Source of the DNA: Crocinitomicaceae bacterium
GTDB lineage: Bacteria; Bacteroidota; Bacteroidia; Flavobacteriales_D; Crocinitomicaceae
Assembly: GCA_029249445.1 (NCBI GenBank)
Contig: JAQWHI010000018.1
Span: 372,001-436,000 of the forward strand
Direction: 5' to 3'
DNA length: 64,000 nucleotides
In this document: piece after piece, positions 1,508-10,817 of the stretch
Layout of the letters: every line of letters starts with the position of its first letter
Numbering within the stretch: the stretch's first letter is position 1
Made by a program: the position numbers and the translations under genes
The notes under the pieces: generated by a model
What the model was told of the DNA's origin: nothing
Seen by the model: the letters and a program-made list of their open reading frames with translations, nothing else
Databases searched by the model: none

Positions 1508-2083
1508 CTATTTTTGAATTTGAATAAACAACTCTGATCCTCTCCTCGAGGCTACAGAATTGTAACACTCTTCGAAACTGACCTTGGAAAAGAGACGAAA
1601 ATAATTTTGATATTCCTCTGCATTTCCACCATATGGTGGACCTCCATCAAATTCAACACCAAACATGAGTCCAATCAACTTTCCACCGTCGACAAGTAAT
1701 TCATGACACTTATCCGCATACAATTGTCGCAGCAACGGGTCTATCGCACAAAACATTGTTTGCTCAACGATTATATCATAAACACCATCATGATTGAAAA
1801 AATCGCCCAAATGTATATGACTGATAGGAAAACTTGGTATTCTCGATCTTAAATTGGCCAAAGCAGTTTCAGCGAAATCAACAACATGAACATTTGTAAA
1901 CCCAAGACGCGACAAATATTCTGCCTCATGCCCATTGCCACAACCTGGAATTAAAATCCGTAGATTTTTTTCTTGAACTTGATCAAAATATACTTTAATT
2001 GGTTTTGAAACTTCTCCCAAGTCCCAGCCAATCGTTTCTTTTTCGTATCTATTTTGCCAAAAACGTTTTGATAAATGTTCCAT
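1508..2083 (-). CDS. SAM-dependent methyltransferase, thiopurine methyltransferase (TPMT)-like
   Basis: 191 aa, cytoplasmic, single class I methyltransferase domain. FWQNRYEKETIGWDLGEVSKP at the N-terminus is the typical opening of the TPMT family (W---Y-----GWDlG--S-P). The SAM-binding glycine motif is ILIPGCGNGHEAEYL (motif I), followed by VHVVDFAETA (acidic end of strand 2) and YDIIVEQTMFCAI (motif IV region). The substrate is unknown; TPMT-like bacterial enzymes methylate sulfur, selenium or small toxic thiols. It is the last gene of the riboswitch-led operon, and its ATG overlaps the preceding stop (TAATG). Whether it has a cobalamin-related job or is simply carried along cannot be told from sequence. 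Confidence 0.8.
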   Translation of the reverse strand: MEHLSKRFWQNRYEKETIGWDLGEVSKPIKVYFDQVQEKNLRILIPGCGNGHEAEYLSRLGFTNVHVVDFAETALANLRSRIPSFPISHIHLGDFFNHDGVYDIIVEQTMFCAIDPLLRQLYADKCHELLVDGGKLIGLMFGVEFDGGPPYGGNAEEYQNYFRLFSKVSFEECYNSVASRRGSELFIQIQK

Positions 2084-3030
2084 TAGTATTTCATCACTTT
2101 TTGCACGAAGTTCATTTTTTCACAAATCAAATGAACAAAAAAACAACCCGAATCAAAAGCACTCAAATCAATACTATCAGGACGATTATCCTCTAGTATC
2201 AATCGACCACTCGAGCTGTATACCTTTACTTTATAATCCTCATTAGAGCAAATTCGAAAGATTCCATTTGTAGGATTGGGATATATCACAATTGAAGAAG
2301 TCGGTGCGGTCAAATCTAATAAATCAGAATGTATCACTCCTACAGCATCGAGATCAAAACCACCTGATTCGAACATCGTTGGGTATGGATCATTTATGAT
2401 TGTACCCTGACTGTCGAATGTTCCAAACTGCGGATCGAGATTACCCACAACGTCGATAATCTTTACATGGGTAATTGCTGATATATCCAAACCCGTTGTG
2501 CCCGACAGCTCTTCAAGGTCAAAGGGGGTTCCAAAGTTTGCTCTGTACTTCCCTGCAAAATTAGTCACGTAGGCACAGTTGACCGTATCAAAATTCGTTA
2601 ATTGTAATGATGTTTGTATTTCACTTATTGCATCAAATCGCGTATAATTGATACCATCAGAGCTCACTTCTACAAAAGCCAGTTCAAGATAGTGGTCCAA
2701 AAAACCATTTTCGAATACGGCAAAGTCAGCGCCTACACCATTGCTTATTGGTGCACTAAAAGTAAGTATCGCCTCTCCTCCATCCCCGAGAGATAAAACC
2801 GATGTCCCTGTTGCTTGACCAGTTGCGTCGGACTCTGAGCCATAGGACGCATATCCAAATGAAGAATTCACAATTAACTGTGGTCCGCGGTCAACGGTGA
2901 CACCTGTAGCCCATCCGATGAAGACAGATGAATCTTTATGAATTGCCGTTGATCCAGCTATACCCGGCTCTGGAGCATAGGATTGTCCAAAACACAGAAG
3001 CGGAGACAAAAAGAATAGGTACTTAATCAT
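2083..3030 (-). CDS. T9SS-sorted cell-surface protein in B12-riboswitch operon
   Basis: 315 aa from the ATG at 3030; nine bases upstream an in-frame TTG exists, but the ATG gives a clean signal peptide (MIKYLFFLSPLLCFGQ) and is preferred. The mature part begins PEPGIAGSTAIHKDSS and contains a beta-rich domain with FGYASYGSESDATG, VLSLGDGGEAILTF and GADFAVFENGF, a pattern I associate with surface proteins in Bacteroidota cobalamin loci. The last 75 residues are a type A T9SS sorting domain (YPNPTNGIF ... SSSGRLI ... FVHLICEKMNFVQKVMKY). It overlaps the BtuG-like gene by 8 nt and the methyltransferase by 1 nt. A cobalamin or cobinamide capture role is inferred from context only. Confidence 0.75.
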   Translation of the reverse strand: MIKYLFFLSPLLCFGQSYAPEPGIAGSTAIHKDSSVFIGWATGVTVDRGPQLIVNSSFGYASYGSESDATGQATGTSVLSLGDGGEAILTFSAPISNGVGADFAVFENGFLDHYLELAFVEVSSDGINYTRFDAISEIQTSLQLTNFDTVNCAYVTNFAGKYRANFGTPFDLEELSGTTGLDISAITHVKIIDVVGNLDPQFGTFDSQGTIINDPYPTMFESGGFDLDAVGVIHSDLLDLTAPTSSIVIYPNPTNGIFRICSNEDYKVKVYSSSGRLILEDNRPDSIDLSAFDSGCFFVHLICEKMNFVQKVMKY

Positions 3031-4060
3031 AAAAAACAACTTTTGAAGGATTCAATCCTACTGAAAAACTCCCCAGATACATACCAGAAGCTGTAAACGA
3101 ACGGAGATAACCTGAATTCGTGTAATTCATTGCGTCAGAAACATAAACCAATCCATCAAAAGGATTGTAGGTCACTCCATACAACGTTGTTACCTCAGAC
3201 AAGTCGAAAATATTTGCTTGCGTCATTTGCTCTGAAACAGGATCAAAGATTCCGATCGAAGAATTATTGTATACCAGAAATGAAGCATTCATTTCAGCGA
3301 TTCCAACGGCATCAAAAGTAAAAGTTTCTGCTACTTGATTGGACGATGTATTGATTCGAACTAACCTGGAAGGTATCTGTCCATAGTCACCTCTGCGCAC
3401 AACATAAATATCTCCCTGGGCATCAGATATGACAGCACCGGGATTAATGCCAACCGTCAACTTAGTCACTTCAGACTCCGACAGAAGATTTACTATTGAT
3501 ACAGTAGAATCTACATTGGGAAAATTGAGCCCACCTGAATTTGCAACATAGAGGTAATTATCTACAACAGCCAGTCCTTCTGGATTACTTCCCACTTGAA
3601 TTCGATTGGTAACTTGTAATGTAACGGTATCGATAACATCAACAAAACCATCATAGCATGAAACATATGCTTTACTTCCTGAAAACGCAATTGCTCTTGG
3701 TTGTTTTGCAATCCCATTTTCAATCATTTCAATCTGAGCAAGAGGCGTAAAGTTAATAGCAGAGAGTACTTCAACTCTACTCGAAGCATTTACAACAACA
3801 TAAATTTTATCTCCATAGCGCTGAATATCGTTCCCAGTGTCACCCAACTGACGATTCGTTGAGGTAACAAAAAATGAATTTTCGATCTCATTTTTAGAAA
3901 AATCAATCCATGAGATGGATGAATTGTTTTGTTGAAAGAGTCCCTCACATAGAACCAACGCACCATTCGACAAATTTTCGTTGACAGATGGACATGGTAT
4001 CGGTTCAGGTTTGCAGCTTGCAAATACTCCAAAAAGCCAAAGAAAACTAATGTAACGCAT
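3023..4060 (-). CDS. BtuG-like surface beta-propeller lipoprotein (YncE/DUF5074 family)
   Basis: 345 aa. Lipoprotein signal MRYISFLWLFGVFASC with Cys16 as the lipidated residue. The rest is a chain of about 40-residue beta-propeller blades, e.g. GDTGNDIQRYGDKIYVVVNASS, QPRAIAFSGSKAYVSCYDG, NPEGLAVVDNYLYVANSG and YGVTYNPFDGLVYVSDA. The NTGNDI----DK-YVV-N block is typical of the YncE-like proteins found with BtuB in Bacteroidota, including BtuG, the surface lipoprotein that captures cobalamin and caps BtuB. Here it directly follows the BtuB-like receptor with a 14-nt overlap and is under a cobalamin riboswitch, which supports the same role. The symbol btuG is plausible but not assigned because ligand residues cannot be checked. 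Confidence 0.82.
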   Translation of the reverse strand: MRYISFLWLFGVFASCKPEPIPCPSVNENLSNGALVLCEGLFQQNNSSISWIDFSKNEIENSFFVTSTNRQLGDTGNDIQRYGDKIYVVVNASSRVEVLSAINFTPLAQIEMIENGIAKQPRAIAFSGSKAYVSCYDGFVDVIDTVTLQVTNRIQVGSNPEGLAVVDNYLYVANSGGLNFPNVDSTVSIVNLLSESEVTKLTVGINPGAVISDAQGDIYVVRRGDYGQIPSRLVRINTSSNQVAETFTFDAVGIAEMNASFLVYNNSSIGIFDPVSEQMTQANIFDLSEVTTLYGVTYNPFDGLVYVSDAMNYTNSGYLRSFTASGMYLGSFSVGLNPSKVVFYD

Positions 4061-6068
4061 AACTCATTGATATTAAGAAGTTTCTACCCGGCATTACAAA
4101 TGAACGCACATACACGTAAGATGAGTCAAAAATGTTTTTTACGTTAGCTTGAAGTTTGATTTTTTGTCCCTTTTTGAGGACAAAAGAATAGGTTATAAAT
4201 AAATCAGAAAGAAGGTAGTCTTGAACTCGATTCTGATCAATGTTTTCATTCAGAGCGAAGCGCATTGAAACATAATTATTCGCAATACCAAACCCCAATT
4301 CACCTCTACTAAATAGAAGATCAAAATTTGCAAGATGCTCAGGTGTATAAGCTATTTGATGCCCATAGTTCAGTGATTCTTTTGTGACGTCTATTGCCTT
4401 TTGGTAGGAATAGTTCACATTCAAATCTACATCTATCTTTCCAACACCCCAACAGAAATCAATTGCGCCTTCCATTCCAAAAATATTAACATTTGTGACG
4501 TTTTGCATCGACCAGATGAACAAATTCTTTGTTGGGATAGCAACAATCTTATTTTGGACTCGATTGAAATAAACAGTAGTACGCAAATCTAGGTTCGCCC
4601 TTTTGTCGTTCTTGGGCGAAGAACTTACCCCATAGTTTATCTGGTGTGCTGACTCTGGTAGCAATTCTGAATTTCCAACAGTAGCGTAATACAATTCATT
4701 AAATGAAGGTATTCTAAATGTATTTTTGTACCAAACCAAATGTTTAAAATGCCAACTCCCTTCCTTAAAAAAGGTCAGATCAACTGATGGATTCACTTTT
4801 ATCGACTCACGGGGGCTATTATTTAGACTCGCCAATTCATAAATGTATTGACTCGATAATTGTACTTTAATTGTGGCCGACTTAAAAGGTTTGTAAACCG
4901 ATACAAATCCACTTGAATGCGACCTAAACGGATTTGATAAGGAAGAATCCGAGGAAACCAATGTACTTAACGTTTCTTCCAACCCTCCAATAACATTAAT
5001 ACCCTTAGCACTTCTTCGACGAAAAACAGTGCCGAGGTTTGTACTTTGGTTGATGTATTCATTGTCCAAAAAACCAATCTCATTCAAATAGGTCGGATCC
5101 AAATACTTCATCGCATTCCAGTTGTAATTGGCATAAGATCGGAATTCCCAGCGTTTGAAATTAAATTTGGCATCCGCATAGAACAAATTATCAAGCGTAT
5201 TCAGACGCTCATCTGCAGTAGAATTATAGAGTATTACTGCTCCTGGAAGCCCTTGATCTATCATTGAACCTCTATAACCAAAACGATAAGAACCATTTTT
5301 CTTTCCAAGAATTTTAACTTGACCACCGAAAAATCCATCTTCATAATCATTGTTATTTCTCACCCCCTCTTCCGTAGCTAAACCATTCAAATATGAATAA
5401 TCATAATCACCACGTGCAGAACGATACTTCGCGTATCCTGAAAAAATTATTCTTTCATCTTTCGAGTAAACGCCTGACAAATAACCTTCATAACGACCAA
5501 ATGAACCCAATTTAAAACTTGAACGGAGTTGATTTCTTGCATCGCCGTATCGACTCTGAAACGTATTCATAACCAATGAATTTCCGGAGAGGTAGGCTGA
5601 TACGGGTAGAAAAATAGATACATTATCATTCGTAGAACTAAGAATAGAAACCATACCATCGGCTTGTATCTGTCCAAGATTTGTCATTCCTGTCTGAGAA
5701 TTAGATACATTAAATCCGTCAACAACTATTGCTGTATGTTGACTTCCAAGGGCTCGTGTACTAATCGATTTTAGTGCTCCCAGTCCACCGTATGACCTTA
5801 CAGTAGATCCGCTGAGTTTGCTGGCCAATTCTCCAATATCATCTGGTGATAGTTTTTGAATTTTATCTTCAAAAATCCACGTACCTACCGGACGTATTGC
5901 TTGACGTTCACCTTTGGTTCGTTTGATACTTATTTCCTCTATATATTGAGTTCGAAGAAGGTCTAATCGCATAGAATCGTTAAAAAAAGCACTAGTGTCC
6001 TGAGCGAATGAAATAACGGGGAGTACAAAAAGTACTCCCACAAAAAATATATTTCTTATGAAGATCAC
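4047..6068 (-). CDS. btuB: TonB-dependent outer-membrane receptor, BtuB-like (cobalamin)
   Basis: 673 aa, close to the BtuB length range. Signal peptide MIFIRNIFFVGVLFVLPVISFAQ, then a plug domain (about residues 50-160: KLSPDDIGELASKLSGSTVRSYGG, STRALGSQHTAIVVDGF) and a 22-strand-type barrel ending in an aromatic-terminated strand (NFLISMSYALH). No N-terminal carboxypeptidase-like domain, as in BtuB-type receptors. The start is GTG at 6068, overlapping the upstream stop as TAGTG; no ATG would retain the signal peptide. The symbol rests on size, the cobalamin riboswitch upstream and the adjacent BtuG-like gene. It would import corrinoid across the outer membrane using TonB energy. Confidence 0.82.
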   Translation of the reverse strand: MIFIRNIFFVGVLFVLPVISFAQDTSAFFNDSMRLDLLRTQYIEEISIKRTKGERQAIRPVGTWIFEDKIQKLSPDDIGELASKLSGSTVRSYGGLGALKSISTRALGSQHTAIVVDGFNVSNSQTGMTNLGQIQADGMVSILSSTNDNVSIFLPVSAYLSGNSLVMNTFQSRYGDARNQLRSSFKLGSFGRYEGYLSGVYSKDERIIFSGYAKYRSARGDYDYSYLNGLATEEGVRNNNDYEDGFFGGQVKILGKKNGSYRFGYRGSMIDQGLPGAVILYNSTADERLNTLDNLFYADAKFNFKRWEFRSYANYNWNAMKYLDPTYLNEIGFLDNEYINQSTNLGTVFRRRSAKGINVIGGLEETLSTLVSSDSSLSNPFRSHSSGFVSVYKPFKSATIKVQLSSQYIYELASLNNSPRESIKVNPSVDLTFFKEGSWHFKHLVWYKNTFRIPSFNELYYATVGNSELLPESAHQINYGVSSSPKNDKRANLDLRTTVYFNRVQNKIVAIPTKNLFIWSMQNVTNVNIFGMEGAIDFCWGVGKIDVDLNVNYSYQKAIDVTKESLNYGHQIAYTPEHLANFDLLFSRGELGFGIANNYVSMRFALNENIDQNRVQDYLLSDLFITYSFVLKKGQKIKLQANVKNIFDSSYVYVRSFVMPGRNFLISMSYALH

Positions 6069-7036
6069 TAGTTTTTAACTACTTTGCTCTTGTAGGATCC
6101 ATTCACATTTTCAAGATGAACAATATAAACGCCAGATGGAAATTCACTTAAATTAACTGATGTAGATTGTTCATGCACAGCCTCTAACAGTATCTCACCA
6201 CTTAATGATGTAATCATCAAATGACCGGATTCTCCATTGATATTTACAATGTCTTTTACAGGATTCGGAAATATCGAAATATTGGACAGTTGCTGCTCAT
6301 TTATTCCGCCGTAAGTTGTACGATTCAAACCGTCAATGGCAAAGTAAGTTGGCGTGTTAATCCAGCCGCCGGTTGTATCTGACGACTCTATTTTAAACGA
6401 TAACTCTCCAATGTGAAATAGAAAACCTGTCAAATCTACATCGATCCATGAATCTACGATATAATCCTGGCTGTTATCAGCGAATCGGTAATCTGCGAGG
6501 TATATTTCAACAGAATCAACCATGGATCCATCGTGGGATTTTCCGTACACCCAAACACGGTAAAAATCCTCCCCATTTGTTCCATCAACAACCGTGCTGT
6601 CTCCATTGTAAATGGACCCAAATTGTTTACCAAATCCGTCACCGTCTCTCATCGACAGAGCAGAATAAGTTGTATTTGTTATTTTAAATTGATCCAAAGA
6701 AATATTTTCTTGATCTACAGAAATACTACCCGAGCTATAGAAAACGGCATATGATTCTGATGCATTGTGGCCAGAACCAGTCCATGCACTAAATTGGTTT
6801 CCCCAACCTGGCGTTACAACATCTGTTTTATTCGAAATTGAAAAGCCTGTCCACGAACCCCATGTGGCGTCATAATTGTTGTAAAAACGAACATCGTCCA
6901 AAATAAAATCACCATTGCCTGCCCAACCATTGTCGAAGGTATCAGCTGTAGGTAAGAAATTTTCAAAATCAATAATTTGTGCCTGGGCACTAGCTCCAAT
7001 CATAAATGCTGTTGCTAAAACGTAAAGTTTCTTCAT
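6068..7036 (-). CDS. DUF4465 domain protein with T9SS type A sorting domain
   Basis: 322 aa, first gene behind the cobalamin riboswitch. Signal peptide MKKLYVLATAFMIGASAQA, then a DUF4465 domain (about residues 20-230): IDFENF near the start, GNGDFILDDVRFYN, WGSWTGFSISN and a later YFAIDGL block. The tail (FPNPVKDIVNINGE ... SGEILLEA ... GVYIVHLENVNGSYKSKVVKN) is a type A T9SS sorting domain, so the protein should be secreted and anchored on the cell surface. DUF4465 proteins recur in B12-riboswitch loci of Bacteroidota, and a role in surface capture of corrinoids is inferred. The stop shares one base with the receptor GTG start, pointing to translational coupling. Confidence 0.85.
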   Translation of the reverse strand: MKKLYVLATAFMIGASAQAQIIDFENFLPTADTFDNGWAGNGDFILDDVRFYNNYDATWGSWTGFSISNKTDVVTPGWGNQFSAWTGSGHNASESYAVFYSSGSISVDQENISLDQFKITNTTYSALSMRDGDGFGKQFGSIYNGDSTVVDGTNGEDFYRVWVYGKSHDGSMVDSVEIYLADYRFADNSQDYIVDSWIDVDLTGFLFHIGELSFKIESSDTTGGWINTPTYFAIDGLNRTTYGGINEQQLSNISIFPNPVKDIVNINGESGHLMITSLSGEILLEAVHEQSTSVNLSEFPSGVYIVHLENVNGSYKSKVVKN

Positions 7037-7149
7037 CGTATAAAAAATAAAAATTATTAAAACGCGAAGAAATCAGGTAAATGAATGTAGGGCGAACTCT
7101 AGGAGACGCAACCAAATCCGACTTTAATCTGAAGTCCTCATTATCTATT

Positions 7150-7309
7150 GACTTGACAAGTATTCTGACTCATACCATATCAGACTCGTCTTCCCGCTCT
7201 ATAGTTGAACAGTGACATAATGAGGCTGACTTCGAGTATTTACAGCTGCAGATACAGTTCCGGGTTTACACCGGATTCCTTTTTTCACTCCATCTTGGAA
7301 ACCAAAGTC
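7150..7309 (-). promoter_or_regulatory. Cobalamin riboswitch (AdoCbl-type core)
   Basis: Read on the minus strand, the leader of the 7036-1508 operon holds the expected conserved parts in order: a P1 strand GACTT (7309-7305), the core AGGAATCCGGTG followed by CCGG, then CTGCAGCTGTAAA, and the B12 box GAGTCAGAATACTTGTCA (7172-7155), closed by AAGTC (7154-7150) pairing with the first GACTT. A weak -7-like box (TACCTTCG, 7321-7314) lies just upstream, placing the 5' end near the P1 strand. About 115 nt separate it from the ATG at 7036, with a GACTT/AAGTC hairpin at 7136-7120 that could exchange with P1. Cobalamin binding is expected to switch the operon off. Confidence 0.9.
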
Positions 7310-7398
7310 AGTGCGAAGGTACAACATTTATTTCGATCGAAAAAAAATGATTGAATTTACCGTACCTCCTATTGTCTTAACTGACCTTTTACCAAATT

Positions 7399-9861
7399 CT
7401 AATTGTTATCCAGTTCGAATGTGTATTGTAACATTATCGATCTTGGCGGTTCAATTTTCAATGGGCGAAGTGAAAAAATACGGTTGAAAATATTTGAACC
7501 AATAAGCGCGATCTTATGGTGATGATTGATCTTGAATGAGAATCGAGCATCGAAAACCCAATTTCCAAATCTATGGGCGTTGAAATAATCCATGTAACGA
7601 ATTTCTTGAACTGTTCCTCCAGTATTCACTGTTGTTTCCTCAAAATCTCTGATGATTCCATCCATGTTAATAATTTTACTGAAATATTTAACGCTAAATC
7701 CAAGTGCTATTTTTTTCTTGTAGTTAAACTCAAAGTCCGCCTTGATGTTGTGCAAAAAACGGTATTTCAATATCTTATGGGTCGTATCTAAAGATGTCGT
7801 ATTGTAGCTAAATTCACGATTAATTGAATCGACAGCATAAATATAATTTGGATTTAAGGTTTTGGGCACGATATAATTGTATCCAGAAATGAAATTGAGA
7901 TCGAGATTGTTGTTGATTTTAGCCTTCCCTGCGAAGGAAATGTCGATTCCAAGGACTCTCGACTTACCAGTATTTAAAAATTTAAATCCAGCAAAAGAAC
8001 TTGGACTATTTGCATCCCAAATACCAAACATATACTCTATAGTATTCTCATATTCCTGCCAAAAACCGGCCATGTCCAAATATCCGAACAGCTTTCCGAA
8101 CTTCAAGCCTTGCTTGATACCAACTTCAGTATTCCAACTACTTTCAGCTTTTAAATTTTCATTTGGAAAAACACCAAAATTACCTACACCCGTTTTTATA
8201 AAACGTTCTGTAATTGTTGGGAATCTATATCCTTGTCCATAAGACCCTCTAATGTAGGTCTCTTGATATACCTTTAAACTGGCACCAGCCCGAAAGATAG
8301 GTTTCAAGTTTTGAATTGAATCATTGAGTTGAAAATATTCCAATCTTCCACCAATGGATAGGTTTAAAGTATTTTTTATTTTTCGTTCTATTTCTGAATA
8401 TGCCGATACATTCAGGAGACGATTAAAAGATGAACCACTTGAGCCACCGTAAATATTTGAGTACGAATCAACAAATTGACTAGAAACACCCCCAACAAAA
8501 TCCATCCCACCGAGGTTCTGATACTTATTCTTGAATCTATAATCACCGTAATAAGTTGTTGTTCTGTTATTTTGATTTGGTGTCATTTTATTGTCAGAGT
8601 GTAAAACTCTAGTTCGCAGACTGTGCTTACCATTAGCCTTAGTGTAGAAATTAACAAAAGGATCAATATTAAAGATCAATTGATCCTGTAAAAAAATTGC
8701 CCCTGGATACGCCCGAAACAATCCCGATGTATCATTAAGCCAAGCAAATGTCATATTGGTGCTTGTAAGCATGGCATTTCCATTAATACCATAATTGAGT
8801 CCCTTAATTTTTTTTGACCGGTACCGCAAATTAAAATTGAATCGAGCACGTTTCGAAGACATATCATTTTCTTGATAGTCAACAGTATCTGGAAATGTAA
8901 CATCCTCACCATTGATTGGAGGGCCTATATAGCCATGATCATAATTTAAATTTCCACCGACAACCAAGTCGAAATTCCCAAAGCGTCTCGAATGTAAAAA
9001 ATTGGCACCTGCTATTAATGGTGCTTGTTCCCACCATACGGCACCCTCTAATGCCGGTTCAGAATAAGCTCCAGAGTACACATTAATTTTTGTTTTCGGC
9101 TTCAACTTCGGAAATGCGGTACGAATATGAATAGATCCTGACAATGCAGCGCTTCCAGAGAGCACAGATGCAGCTCCCTTAATAACTTCAATCTGGTGTA
9201 TGTTCTCAACAGGTATAAACCCCCATTCTGGACGACCAGCATCTCCCGAAAGCATCGGCATTTCATCTACAATTACCGCAACCTTAGAACCTACTCCAAA
9301 TGTAAAACCACTCCCTCCTCTGATTTGGGGTTCACCATCGAGTATGTTCAAACCTGGTGTTTGGTCTAACGCAGTTTCAATACTCCTCGTATTTTTATTC
9401 TCGATAATTTCAGGCTTCAACAATTCGATAGAGACTGTTTGGTCCTCAATACGCTTATCAAACTTACCTACTTTGACCGTTATATCATTAAAGTCTTGAA
9501 CATTCGGATCAATATAAGACTTCAAAACAATATCCATCGAAATCGTCTTATTCGGAAGAATGGTAACATAAAAGGTATCGCTAATCATACTCGTATATCG
9601 ACAGATGATACGAGATTCTCCTGGCGGAAGGCTCAATAAATACGCCCCAAACTCATCGGTTATACATCCAACAGTAATGTCTTTTTTCGTTAAAACAGAT
9701 GCTCCTATTAAAATTTCTCCATCTTGATCAAAAACCCGACCTACGAGCTCACCATTTTGACCAAAAGAGAAGAATGAAATACATACGGAAAATACAATGA
9801 GTCTCATAAATCCAGGTAAAAAAAGAGCCGCACTAGAATCTAATGCAGCCCAAAAGTTCAT
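7399..9861 (-). CDS. TonB-dependent receptor with N-terminal carboxypeptidase-like regulatory domain
   Basis: 820 aa. Signal sequence, then a CarboxypepD_reg-like domain (GELVGRVFDQDGEILIGASV to about residue 115), a plug domain (IETALDQTPGLNI, PQIRGGSGFTFGVG, VAVIVDEMP, IHQIEVIKGAASVLSGSAALSG) and a long beta-barrel ending SIMLQYTFELDN. This is the general Bacteroidota receptor layout for vitamins, siderophores, haem or peptides; the substrate cannot be read. ATG at 9861 has an A-rich Bacteroidota-like upstream context; an in-frame ATG 18 codons later gives a tidier signal peptide (MRLIVFSVCISFFSFGQ) and is the alternative start. It follows a T9SS protein gene by 8 nt, likely as one operon, and ends before the riboswitch of the next operon. 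Confidence 0.87.
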   Translation of the reverse strand: MNFWAALDSSAALFLPGFMRLIVFSVCISFFSFGQNGELVGRVFDQDGEILIGASVLTKKDITVGCITDEFGAYLLSLPPGESRIICRYTSMISDTFYVTILPNKTISMDIVLKSYIDPNVQDFNDITVKVGKFDKRIEDQTVSIELLKPEIIENKNTRSIETALDQTPGLNILDGEPQIRGGSGFTFGVGSKVAVIVDEMPMLSGDAGRPEWGFIPVENIHQIEVIKGAASVLSGSAALSGSIHIRTAFPKLKPKTKINVYSGAYSEPALEGAVWWEQAPLIAGANFLHSRRFGNFDLVVGGNLNYDHGYIGPPINGEDVTFPDTVDYQENDMSSKRARFNFNLRYRSKKIKGLNYGINGNAMLTSTNMTFAWLNDTSGLFRAYPGAIFLQDQLIFNIDPFVNFYTKANGKHSLRTRVLHSDNKMTPNQNNRTTTYYGDYRFKNKYQNLGGMDFVGGVSSQFVDSYSNIYGGSSGSSFNRLLNVSAYSEIERKIKNTLNLSIGGRLEYFQLNDSIQNLKPIFRAGASLKVYQETYIRGSYGQGYRFPTITERFIKTGVGNFGVFPNENLKAESSWNTEVGIKQGLKFGKLFGYLDMAGFWQEYENTIEYMFGIWDANSPSSFAGFKFLNTGKSRVLGIDISFAGKAKINNNLDLNFISGYNYIVPKTLNPNYIYAVDSINREFSYNTTSLDTTHKILKYRFLHNIKADFEFNYKKKIALGFSVKYFSKIINMDGIIRDFEETTVNTGGTVQEIRYMDYFNAHRFGNWVFDARFSFKINHHHKIALIGSNIFNRIFSLRPLKIEPPRSIMLQYTFELDNN

Positions 9862-9869
9862 CGTATATT

Positions 9870-10817
9870 TTAATTTTTAAAGACTTTGAATTGCTTCATA
9901 GCATGTTCCGTATTCACATGAATGATGTAAGCCCCAGCTGGTGCATAAAAAGGCACTTTTTGAGCAACAATACCAGACGCTATTTTCTGTCCTGACATAT
10001 CATAAATTTCATACCTCTCGTCAAGTAGCACCTCAGAACTAAAATTCAATTCGTTGGTGAGATTGTCCATGTATACTTCTGTGGTAGACACAGTCACTTC
10101 TTTAATTTCAGAAGAATTATATATCAATGTAACATCGTCGATAAATACTTGATCGCCAATCGTTCCAACACCGGGAATTTCATTGGTTGTAAAAGTTACC
10201 AAAATATGGGTATTATTTGACGCTGGACCGCTGTAATCAAATGGTACAGACTTTCTTTCCCAGCCATTTGTTGAGGGATAATTTAATACAGCCGTGGCAA
10301 CTACATGCTGAGAAGATGCGGCATCTTCAGGGTCTTGATAGTTAAAATCATCGTGCAAAGTTGCTTTCATTCTTGCATTGTGTGAAGGATCTTGACCTAT
10401 AAATTTTGCCCAGAAAACAATGGAATCTGGAGTGTCAGTGCACGCTTCGGAGAACTCTTCCGAGCCCATATTGGTCCAAGAATAGTTTGAGACATCAGCT
10501 GCCGTAGCGCTTCCTACGTTTAGCTGTCCACACGTCATCGTTCCATTTGCAGGAATGGACAACGCACCTTGTGTTTGAATAAGTGCACTAAACCCAGTAC
10601 CTGTGGGTGTATCCGTAGACTGAAATATACCCTGAGGAGCGAATGAAATAAACAATTGACTGCCTGAAGCTTCTTTAATTCCACTCCAATTTTGAGGGCT
10701 TTCCGTTGCAGCACCTAAATCTTCCCAGATTTCCATATCAGAATTCCCAATTTGAGTCTGTGCAACTAATGCTTTTGACACCAACAAAACAGAGACCAAC
10801 ACAATTCGTTTATACAT
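9870..10817 (-). CDS. Secreted PCMD-like protein with T9SS sorting domain
   Basis: 315 aa. Signal peptide MYKRIVLVSVLLVSKALVAQ. The body opens IGNSDMEIWEDLG...PQNWSG and contains DSIVFWAKFIGQDPSHNARMKATLHDD, GWERKSVPFDYSG and a closing GDQVFIDDVTLIYN strand, matching the jelly-roll type PCMD (putative carbohydrate metabolism domain, PF13201) pattern. The C-terminus (LDERYEIYDMSGQKIASG ... GAYIIHVNTEHAMKQFKVFKN) is a T9SS type A sorting domain. It sits 8 nt before the TonB-dependent receptor, so it probably supplies a surface-exposed ligand-binding or substrate-processing partner. The ligand is unknown. Domain assignment is moderate; the sorting tail is clear. Confidence 0.75.
   Translation of the reverse strand: MYKRIVLVSVLLVSKALVAQTQIGNSDMEIWEDLGAATESPQNWSGIKEASGSQLFISFAPQGIFQSTDTPTGTGFSALIQTQGALSIPANGTMTCGQLNVGSATAADVSNYSWTNMGSEEFSEACTDTPDSIVFWAKFIGQDPSHNARMKATLHDDFNYQDPEDAASSQHVVATAVLNYPSTNGWERKSVPFDYSGPASNNTHILVTFTTNEIPGVGTIGDQVFIDDVTLIYNSSEIKEVTVSTTEVYMDNLTNELNFSSEVLLDERYEIYDMSGQKIASGIVAQKVPFYAPAGAYIIHVNTEHAMKQFKVFKN

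Follow-up and report, generated by a model that had tools for sequence, protein, structure and literature searches.

In the genome assembly of a Crocinitomicaceae bacterium (GenBank GCA_029249445.1, contig JAQWHI010000018.1), two adjacent genes encode a TonB-dependent receptor and a surface partner that ends in a tail for the type IX secretion system (T9SS). The window analyzed here is the stretch of 64,000 nucleotides (nt) from position 372,001 to 436,000 of that contig; positions below are window positions unless a locus of a relative (L) is named, and related genomes are denoted G. Both open reading frames (ORFs) proposed in an earlier reading made from the DNA letters alone, hereafter the sequence-only reading, are real and lie on the minus strand at 7399-9861 and 9870-10817. 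On that strand, the order is partner, receptor, cobalamin riboswitch, and B12 operon, the last comprising a DUF4465 protein with a T9SS tail, a BtuB-like receptor, a BtuG-like (DUF5074) protein, and a further T9SS protein. Pfam annotation of these neighboring genes agrees that a B12 operon adjoins the pair. The features of the locus are as follows.

9870-10817, minus strand: T9SS surface partner, 315 amino acids (aa), residues 1-19 signal-peptide-like (ORF, structure, and profile matches)
10113-10760, minus strand: PCMD-type jelly-roll domain of the partner, about residues 20-235 (VIA-align and profile matches)
9873-10082, minus strand: T9SS type-A C-terminal sorting domain of the partner, about residues 246-315 (TIGR04183 just under its cut-off; profile matches)
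9851-9858, minus strand: AACTTTTG, a 5/6 match to the Bacteroidota -7 promoter element TAnnTTTG
9825-9851, minus strand: terminator-like hairpin between partner and receptor, 12 pairs, loop of 3 (scan; kept in relatives)
9818-9824, minus strand: seven T directly after the hairpin
7399-9861, minus strand: receptor ORF as given in the ORF list (820 aa)
7399-9807, minus strand: TonB-dependent receptor from the proposed start Met19, 802 aa (Pfam domains, start conservation)
9517-9741, minus strand: CarboxypepD_reg-like N-terminal extension of the receptor, residues 41-115 (PF13715 and PF13620, both above cut-off)
9136-9447, minus strand: plug domain, residues 139-242, with the near-invariant block GEPQIRGGSGFTFGVG (PF07715; invariant columns)
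7408-9096, minus strand: beta-barrel, about residues 256-818 (PF00593; model; structural matches)
7138-7321, minus strand: cobalamin riboswitch of the downstream B12 operon (context)
6068-7036, minus strand: DUF4465 protein with a T9SS tail, first gene of the B12 operon (context)

The central finding is that receptor and partner are conserved together within an aquatic bacterial group. Among 80 loci fetched with the receptor alone (the best 80 of 387, hence the nearer relatives), the partner lies directly upstream in all 72 that have at least 450 nt of upstream sequence; the remaining eight reach a contig end, and three of these show a partial partner. The possibility that the two genes are not kept together in relatives is thereby clearly contradicted, and the proposal that the receptor and a T9SS-exported partner form one unit is upheld. 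Of 20 further loci picked by receptor position, several of them from genomes already known from the partner search, all eight with a partner-type receptor and upstream sequence carry the partner. When unique partner-type receptors with at least 450 nt upstream were pooled, the partner was found in 107/107 (106 upstream, 1 downstream), a set that was partly fetched by the partner itself (L032-L091) and is therefore biased, whereas it accompanied 0/18 related receptors under the 1000-bit cut by which receptor type was set, using a model built from partner-linked receptors. A tree drawn from 57 of the 134 receptors (the 18 low-scoring ones plus every third high-scoring one) places the partner-linked receptors in a single clade (100/100), which also takes in one row cut at a contig end. 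Among the 18 low-scoring receptors, kdsB lies downstream in 13 and dprA upstream in 11. Such a sister receptor lineage, beside dprA and/or kdsB and without the partner, occurs in many genomes of the order (L180, L185, L216-L224, L235), and the window's own genome holds a copy of the dprA-kdsB type on another contig (L184:7702-10107).

At E<=0.001, the partner search found matches in 74 of 149 genomes (the window's own among them), and the weakest matches reach the tail only. For the receptor, 181 of 245 genomes of the order (again with the window's own) have a match at E<=1e-180, where up to four candidates were scored per genome and the kdsB-linked lineage is included; nearly each genome listed has one match, and G099 has two. 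Across the phylum, with two candidates scored per genome, 6/392 genomes reach E<=1e-90. Within the order, the pair is a widely distributed module that usually lies away from B12 genes. A co-directional gene follows the receptor within 200 nt in 48/116 loci, and these genes are varied: rpsP-like (16), SCO1 (3), an SBF symporter (3), a CotH-like T9SS protein (3), glycerol-kinase-like (2), ClpB-like (2), and others, where Pfam was run on SCO1, SBF, CotH, and a few more, and the rpsP, glpK, and ClpB labels are our own reading of N-termini. Since the downstream neighbors vary, the conserved unit consists of two genes. We also considered deriving the ligand from these neighbors, which proved too scattered and differ by lineage. 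In one genus (L226:6616-10523, L233), the glycerol-kinase-like gene begins 8-62 nt after the receptor.

The partner had been called PCMD-like, a description that holds for its fold and its profile relations and not for the PF13201 model itself: the window protein has no Pfam match at E<=0.001 and none to PF13201 even at E<=10, and a relative (L084) scores 18.8 bits, under the PF13201 cut-off of 28. An AlphaFold2 model of the partner (mean pLDDT 89.0) aligns with four solved Bacteroides proteins titled "putative glycoside hydrolases" at VIA-align Z-scores of 19.0 (3hbz), 18.8 (4jrl), 17.9 (3s30), and 17.8 (4het), the next row standing at 12.7; we take these four to be members of PF13201. A profile of 33 partner sequences likewise matches 3s30 (E 1.8e-6) and 3hbz (E 1.1e-4). 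On the strength of the model, the partner core is a PCMD-type jelly-roll, the fold of carbohydrate-binding modules. The tail is missed by Pfam and scores 22.7 bits against TIGR04183 (NCBIfam; cut-off 23). However, the partner-family profile matches solved T9SS C-terminal domains (gingipain R2, 8glk_D, 8glj_D), and 4/8 relatives tested pass the PF18962 cut-off, so that the earlier assignment of a T9SS tail is well founded. Export of the partner by this system is possible, as the genome encodes SprA, the T9SS translocon (TIGR04189, 2360 bits against a cut-off of 200). In relatives, partners are lengthened, up to 1478 aa (L074), by domains inserted between the PCMD-type domain and the T9SS tail. 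Eight long partners were tested, and PKD domains were found in four (L060, L073, L075, L078), TSP3 in one (L062), and Ig_7 in one (L082); the modeled fold together with such PKD, TSP3, or Ig-like additions (6/8) is compatible with a surface binder. Locus L063 (4282-6660 and following genes) encodes a 792-aa partner paralogue that has no receptor and is directly followed by an ABC transporter (binding protein, permease, ATPase). This transporter looks iron-type to us, its Pfam matches being generic only.

The receptor was correctly recognized as a TonB-dependent receptor with a carboxypeptidase-like domain, since the CarboxypepD_reg-like extension, plug (PF07715, 60.8 bits), and barrel (PF00593, 90.4 bits) all score above their Pfam cut-offs. 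Its structural model is of moderate quality (mean pLDDT 69.3), and the plug is poorly modeled, with pLDDT under 50 over residues 121-249. In the rows shown by the structure search, which do not exclude families missing there, the model matches siderophore, colicin-I, B12, copper, and heme receptors at Z 19.4-23.5, led by PirA (siderophore; Z 23.5) and Cir (Z 22.0), with BtuB chains at 19.8-21.7. The scores are closely spaced across ligand types and thus carry little information on the ligand. A named ligand family could not be assigned by sequence either: NCBIfam matches are far under cut-off and of mixed ligand types. The best of them is a TonB heme receptor family, and the heme-receptor models TIGR01785/TIGR01786 gave 73.7 against 316.85 bits and 72.2 against 323.75 bits. 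TIGR01779 (B12 receptor) matches the plug with 55.7 bits against a cut-off of 599.7, a score to be read beside the 75.3 bits of the BtuB-like neighbor itself. TonB heme receptors carry a His between their FRAP and NPNL boxes, and a His between the FRAP-like and NPNL-like boxes occurs in 0/40 receptor rows. In the alignment, Met201 and Met203 of the plug are conserved, as are several His; there is no conserved Cys.

Mean pairwise identity over 17 loci is highest for the receptor (70%), followed by OmpA (66%), the partner (60%), BtuG (55%), DUF4465 (47%), and BtuB (43%). The receptor loops, drawn on the moderate-quality model, are conserved like the rest of the barrel (0.697 versus 0.691). A receptor more conserved than BtuB, with loops as conserved as its barrel, points to stronger constraint and one fixed ligand. 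We interpret it as the sign of a core function devoted to a single ligand rather than of a local specialization. A role for the receptor as a part of BAM was considered and rejected, BamG being a FadL homologue in the excerpted BAM paper (PMC12578637). At one locus (L045:9922-12321), a frameshift or an assembly error has divided the receptor between two ORFs (302 + 486 aa).

The partner had been placed 8 nt upstream of the receptor, a distance counted from the first ATG of the long ORF. The first 18 codons of that ORF are not conserved, the Met19 column is Met in 35/40 rows, and just 9/40 rows have more than five residues before it. To judge from this conservation, the receptor probably starts at Met19 (9807), the gap is 62 nt, and the 8-nt figure is a start-codon artifact; the sequence-only reading made no mention of the terminator-like hairpin in this gap. 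With a start at Met19, the first codons of the long ORF would be translated hairpin. Among 109 pairs, the gap measures less than 30 nt in 53, 30-49 nt in 3, 50-85 nt in 52, and more than 85 nt in 1, and a hairpin followed by a T-run is found in 0/53, 1/3, 49/52, and 0/1 of these, respectively (50/109 overall).

With a stricter hairpin finder, 39/56 gaps of at least 30 nt and 0/53 shorter gaps scored positive. Dinucleotide shuffles of the 52 gaps produced a mean of 1.26/52 with a hairpin (maximum 5), and the gaps had a mean minimum free energy of -18.8, compared with -8.1 in shuffles. As controls, co-directional gaps of the same size at the same loci contained such a hairpin in 7/90 cases, against 49/52 (Fisher p about 1e-26, for sequences that are related); removal of near-duplicates left 40/43 against 6/80. 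Earlier co-directional controls (24/74; 9/44 with the full motif) held duplicate receptor loci and were not used. Within 35 nt of the start of other genes, a hairpin with a T-run was rare (8/200 co-directional, 2/166 divergent), and the hairpin is therefore not a general leader element in these loci. Two-sided compensatory changes occur in 9/10 pairs among 17 aligned sequences, which we chose from the 52 as alignable and which come nearly all from the window's genus, a selection that leans towards structure.

A match to TAnnTTTG (5 or 6 of 6 bases) overlaps or abuts the 5' foot in 31/49 hairpins, compared with 7/69 control hairpins. In the near-duplicate-free set, 18/30 matches have the first base of the stem as their last base, and a full match occurs in 15/40 versus 1.6 in shuffles; in the window, the last base of AACTTTTG is the hairpin's first base. 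In the excerpted portion of PMC6847099, the G of this element lies at -5 in Flavobacterium johnsoniae. Such a position, together with the overlap at the foot, would place the transcript start inside the 5' arm. The terminator-like form of hairpin and T-run, and a promoter-like element that precedes it, would also suit an ordinary partner terminator next to a receptor with a normal separate promoter, the hairpin itself having no regulatory part. This plainer arrangement is possible but on balance unlikely, because other co-directional gaps of this size seldom contain such a hairpin and because the hairpin in relatives ends only 6-28 nt before the receptor start. The latter distance leaves scarcely any room for a later promoter, so that receptor transcripts would start inside or before the hairpin. 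Judged on its sequence features, the hairpin may instead be an uncoupling element between partner and receptor.

We consider it moderately probable that partner and receptor make up a self-contained outer-membrane capture-and-import module, the dosage of the two being uncoupled by the hairpin in many lineages. By analogy with partners of the SusD, BtuG, XusB, and HmuY type, this module would work as follows: (i) the T9SS would export the partner, which would stay on the cell surface or be released from it and bind the ligand; and (ii) the receptor would take the ligand over from the partner and import it. As for dosage, (i) transcripts from the partner promoter may mostly end at the U-run of the hairpin; (ii) the receptor may be expressed through read-through, from a promoter with its -7 element on the hairpin's 5' foot, or by both routes; (iii) receptor transcripts that begin inside the 5' arm could not form the full terminator and would escape termination; and (iv) the partner would be in excess over the receptor, with both tunable apart. 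We would go one step further only tentatively, and with more doubt than belief, in suggesting that the hairpin in many Crocinitomicaceae is a nested terminator-promoter switch, in which one 60-nt element sets the partner:receptor ratio. To our knowledge, no such nested arrangement has been described for receptor-partner pairs, although we made no literature search aimed at one.

Several observations count against parts of this proposal. Two genomes of about 2.2 Mb each (G054 and G083; loci L069 and L070) keep the partner without this receptor type, so the partner can exist alone. The mirror-tree analysis (22 loci) speaks weakly, from sequence distances, for a link between the two proteins: the partner-receptor distance correlation is 0.846, and its partial correlation of 0.583 is the highest for the partner, yet hardly above the 0.553 for receptor and OmpA. 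No inner-membrane transporter or enzyme is conserved beside the pair. Regarding the hairpin, 53 of the 109 pairs are less than 30 nt apart and none of these has one; therefore, it is not needed for the pair as such. The terminator scan of the window was near chance, with 4 sites in 4.1 kb versus 2.6 in shuffles, and the case for the hairpin thus rests on relatives. Finally, the -7-like element of the window, AACTTTTG, misses one of six bases. If the capture-and-import module holds, this strictly conserved pair, with its jelly-roll partner exported by the T9SS, would connect that secretion system with nutrient capture, and the hairpin would offer a simple possible way to make more capture protein than receptor. 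A receptor that is usually single and unusually conserved also provides a clean system for ligand finding.

As to the ligand, a carbohydrate-containing molecule is our weak first choice, given that the partner model has a carbohydrate-binding-module fold. Metal chelates are possible. Heme is disfavored, as neither heme-receptor model reached its cut-off and no His stands in the box region, and B12 is disfavored by the unlinked loci and the absence of a preceding riboswitch. The metal reading would have the pair import an iron or other metal chelate, heme, or a siderophore, with a hemophore-like or xenosiderophore-binding partner. The partner-then-receptor order as in hmuY-hmuR, the heme receptor family as best NCBIfam model (despite its distance from the cut-off), PirA and Cir as top structural matches, the partner paralogue beside the transporter that we read as iron-type in L063, SCO1 after the receptor in three related loci, and the plug Met and several His residues that leave metal binding open are all in line with it. 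Even so, best Fur-box matches in 88 non-redundant regions upstream of the partner resembled those of mononucleotide shuffles, without enrichment, and were not taken as evidence for control by iron. Together with the lack of the box His and of any conserved Cys, and the CBM-like partner fold, this makes a metal chelate system unlikely in our view. In the same 88 upstream regions, the flavobacterial promoter motif TATATTTG was present, on either strand, in 47; other upstream k-mers (CCTTGAA, ACCATTC, etc.) are believed to come from the neighboring queE coding region and were dropped.

A second alternative is that the pair is no importer of nutrients and serves surface assembly, adhesion, or sensing, the T9SS protein being an adhesin that docks on the receptor. 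High receptor conservation with one strong match in nearly each positive genome, the lack of a conserved enzyme or inner-membrane transporter nearby, the domains common in adhesins among long partners (PKD 4, TSP3 1, Ig_7 1; n=8), and the retention of the partner without the receptor in two genomes would all fit such a role. Nevertheless, plug and barrel of the receptor are complete, its loops are conserved, and the partner core has a CBM-like fold, and we therefore hold a non-importing role to be rather improbable.

The sequence-only reading had further suggested that the pair repeats the receptor and T9SS partner logic of the neighboring B12 operon, lacks a riboswitch of its own, and reflects a local specialization for scarce nutrients. 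The first of these suggestions is right insofar as both comprise a T9SS-tailed partner, and goes too far in that the partner belongs to another family and the pair is mostly away from B12 genes. The second is correct, since the sole riboswitch in the window (Cobalamin, 7138-7321) follows the receptor and precedes the B12 genes, and an Rfam riboswitch search of 30 further pair loci (20 with 1.5 kb flanks, 10 longer) found none. B12 genes occur within 4.5 kb after the receptor in 24/90 loci with that much sequence (29/116 when short contigs are included). The window's genus is heavily represented in this sample, and 24/90 is a lower bound, as B12 genes farther away can escape recognition. The riboswitch stands between pair and B12 operon in 8/8 B12-linked loci tested. 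It directly follows the receptor in 5/46 hand-picked pair genomes (G012, G027, G050, G069, G082), each of which belongs either to the window's genus or to one other. The adjacency of pair and B12 genes looks like shared synteny of these two genera. The local specialization is not borne out, in view of the wide spread of the pair, the low share of loci with B12 genes, the varying downstream gene, and the lack of a Fur-box signal or an upstream riboswitch, and the case for a second B12-like uptake system appears weak. That the pair is a second cobamide uptake system and a functional part of the B12 operon, as its place upstream of the riboswitch and B12 genes in the window and some relatives, the intervening riboswitch in all eight loci tested, the BtuB chains among the better structural matches, the weak NCBIfam B12-receptor match to the plug, and the jelly-roll form of B12-binding DUF4465 proteins (excerpts of PMC13398666) might suggest, is very improbable, because 66/90 receptors with enough sequence lack B12 genes after them, no riboswitch precedes the pair in the window or the 30 loci, PirA and Cir match the receptor as well as BtuB, cobalamin riboswitches are present in 45/46 genomes and thus do not discriminate, and BtuB is much less conserved than the receptor. 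A ligand shared with DUF4465 was also considered from profile comparison and set aside, as only the T9SS tail and the stretch just before it aligned.

Known partners of Bacteroidota TonB receptors are mostly lipoproteins. Like HmuY-HmuR of Porphyromonas gingivalis, the window pair has the partner gene first and the TonB receptor second, and for that system the promoter-proximal genes are reported to be more transcribed (PMC3764172, in part). However, HmuY is a lipoprotein, and the window receptor has neither heme-receptor scores above cut-off nor the His feature. BtuB-BtuG/DUF4465 systems resemble it in joining a TonB receptor to surface B12 binders, and the adjoining operon of the window is such a system with T9SS tails; the window pair differs from them in having no riboswitch of its own, a different partner family, and a location mostly away from B12 genes. 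The available portion of PMC13398666 describes B12 binding for the DUF4465 family and jelly-roll B12 binders. XusA-XusB (9gbc) shares the carboxypeptidase-like N-terminal domain on the receptor and the surface partner, and 9gbc is the receptor's best profile match among solved sequences, confined to the N-terminal domain and plug. Unlike the window partner, XusB is a DUF4374 lipoprotein with a PepSY protein encoded nearby (PMC13142918, in part). SusC-SusD also places receptor and surface partner in adjacent genes, but the window pair has no SusC- or SusD-type model among its Pfam or NCBIfam matches at E<=0.001.

Proteins of the BT2081/PCMD type (3hbz, 3s30, 4jrl, 4het) share the jelly-roll of about 200 residues with the partner (Z 17.8-19.0), with a profile relation for 3s30 and 3hbz. 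The 3hbz paper, as far as excerpted (PMC2954218), presents a jelly-roll that carries a conserved calcium site together with a deep pocket, putatively for carbohydrate, and the calcium-site residues Glu122 and Asp351 of BT2081 appear to fall near the invariant Glu29 and Asp227/228 of the partner, as judged from the ends of the aligned ranges only. BT2081 differs in that it begins with an Ig-like domain and is presumed to be anchored in the membrane, whereas the partner has a T9SS tail after the domain and is tied to a TonB receptor. Among open-licence PMC papers, we found none that mentions PCMD along with both TonB dependence and type IX secretion, none that gives the full PCMD name along with a TonB-dependent receptor, and none that names PF13201.

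Two further observations concern the surroundings of the pair. In many relatives, a K+ channel-like gene and a gene for a 120-aa protein (family unassigned) lie divergently between queE and the pair (L051:9578-10875, L062:6784-8081, L050:7198-8516); both are absent from the window. The last gene of the B12 operon (2083-3039) codes for a protein whose T9SS tail is its only Pfam domain and which accompanies the operon in many relatives.

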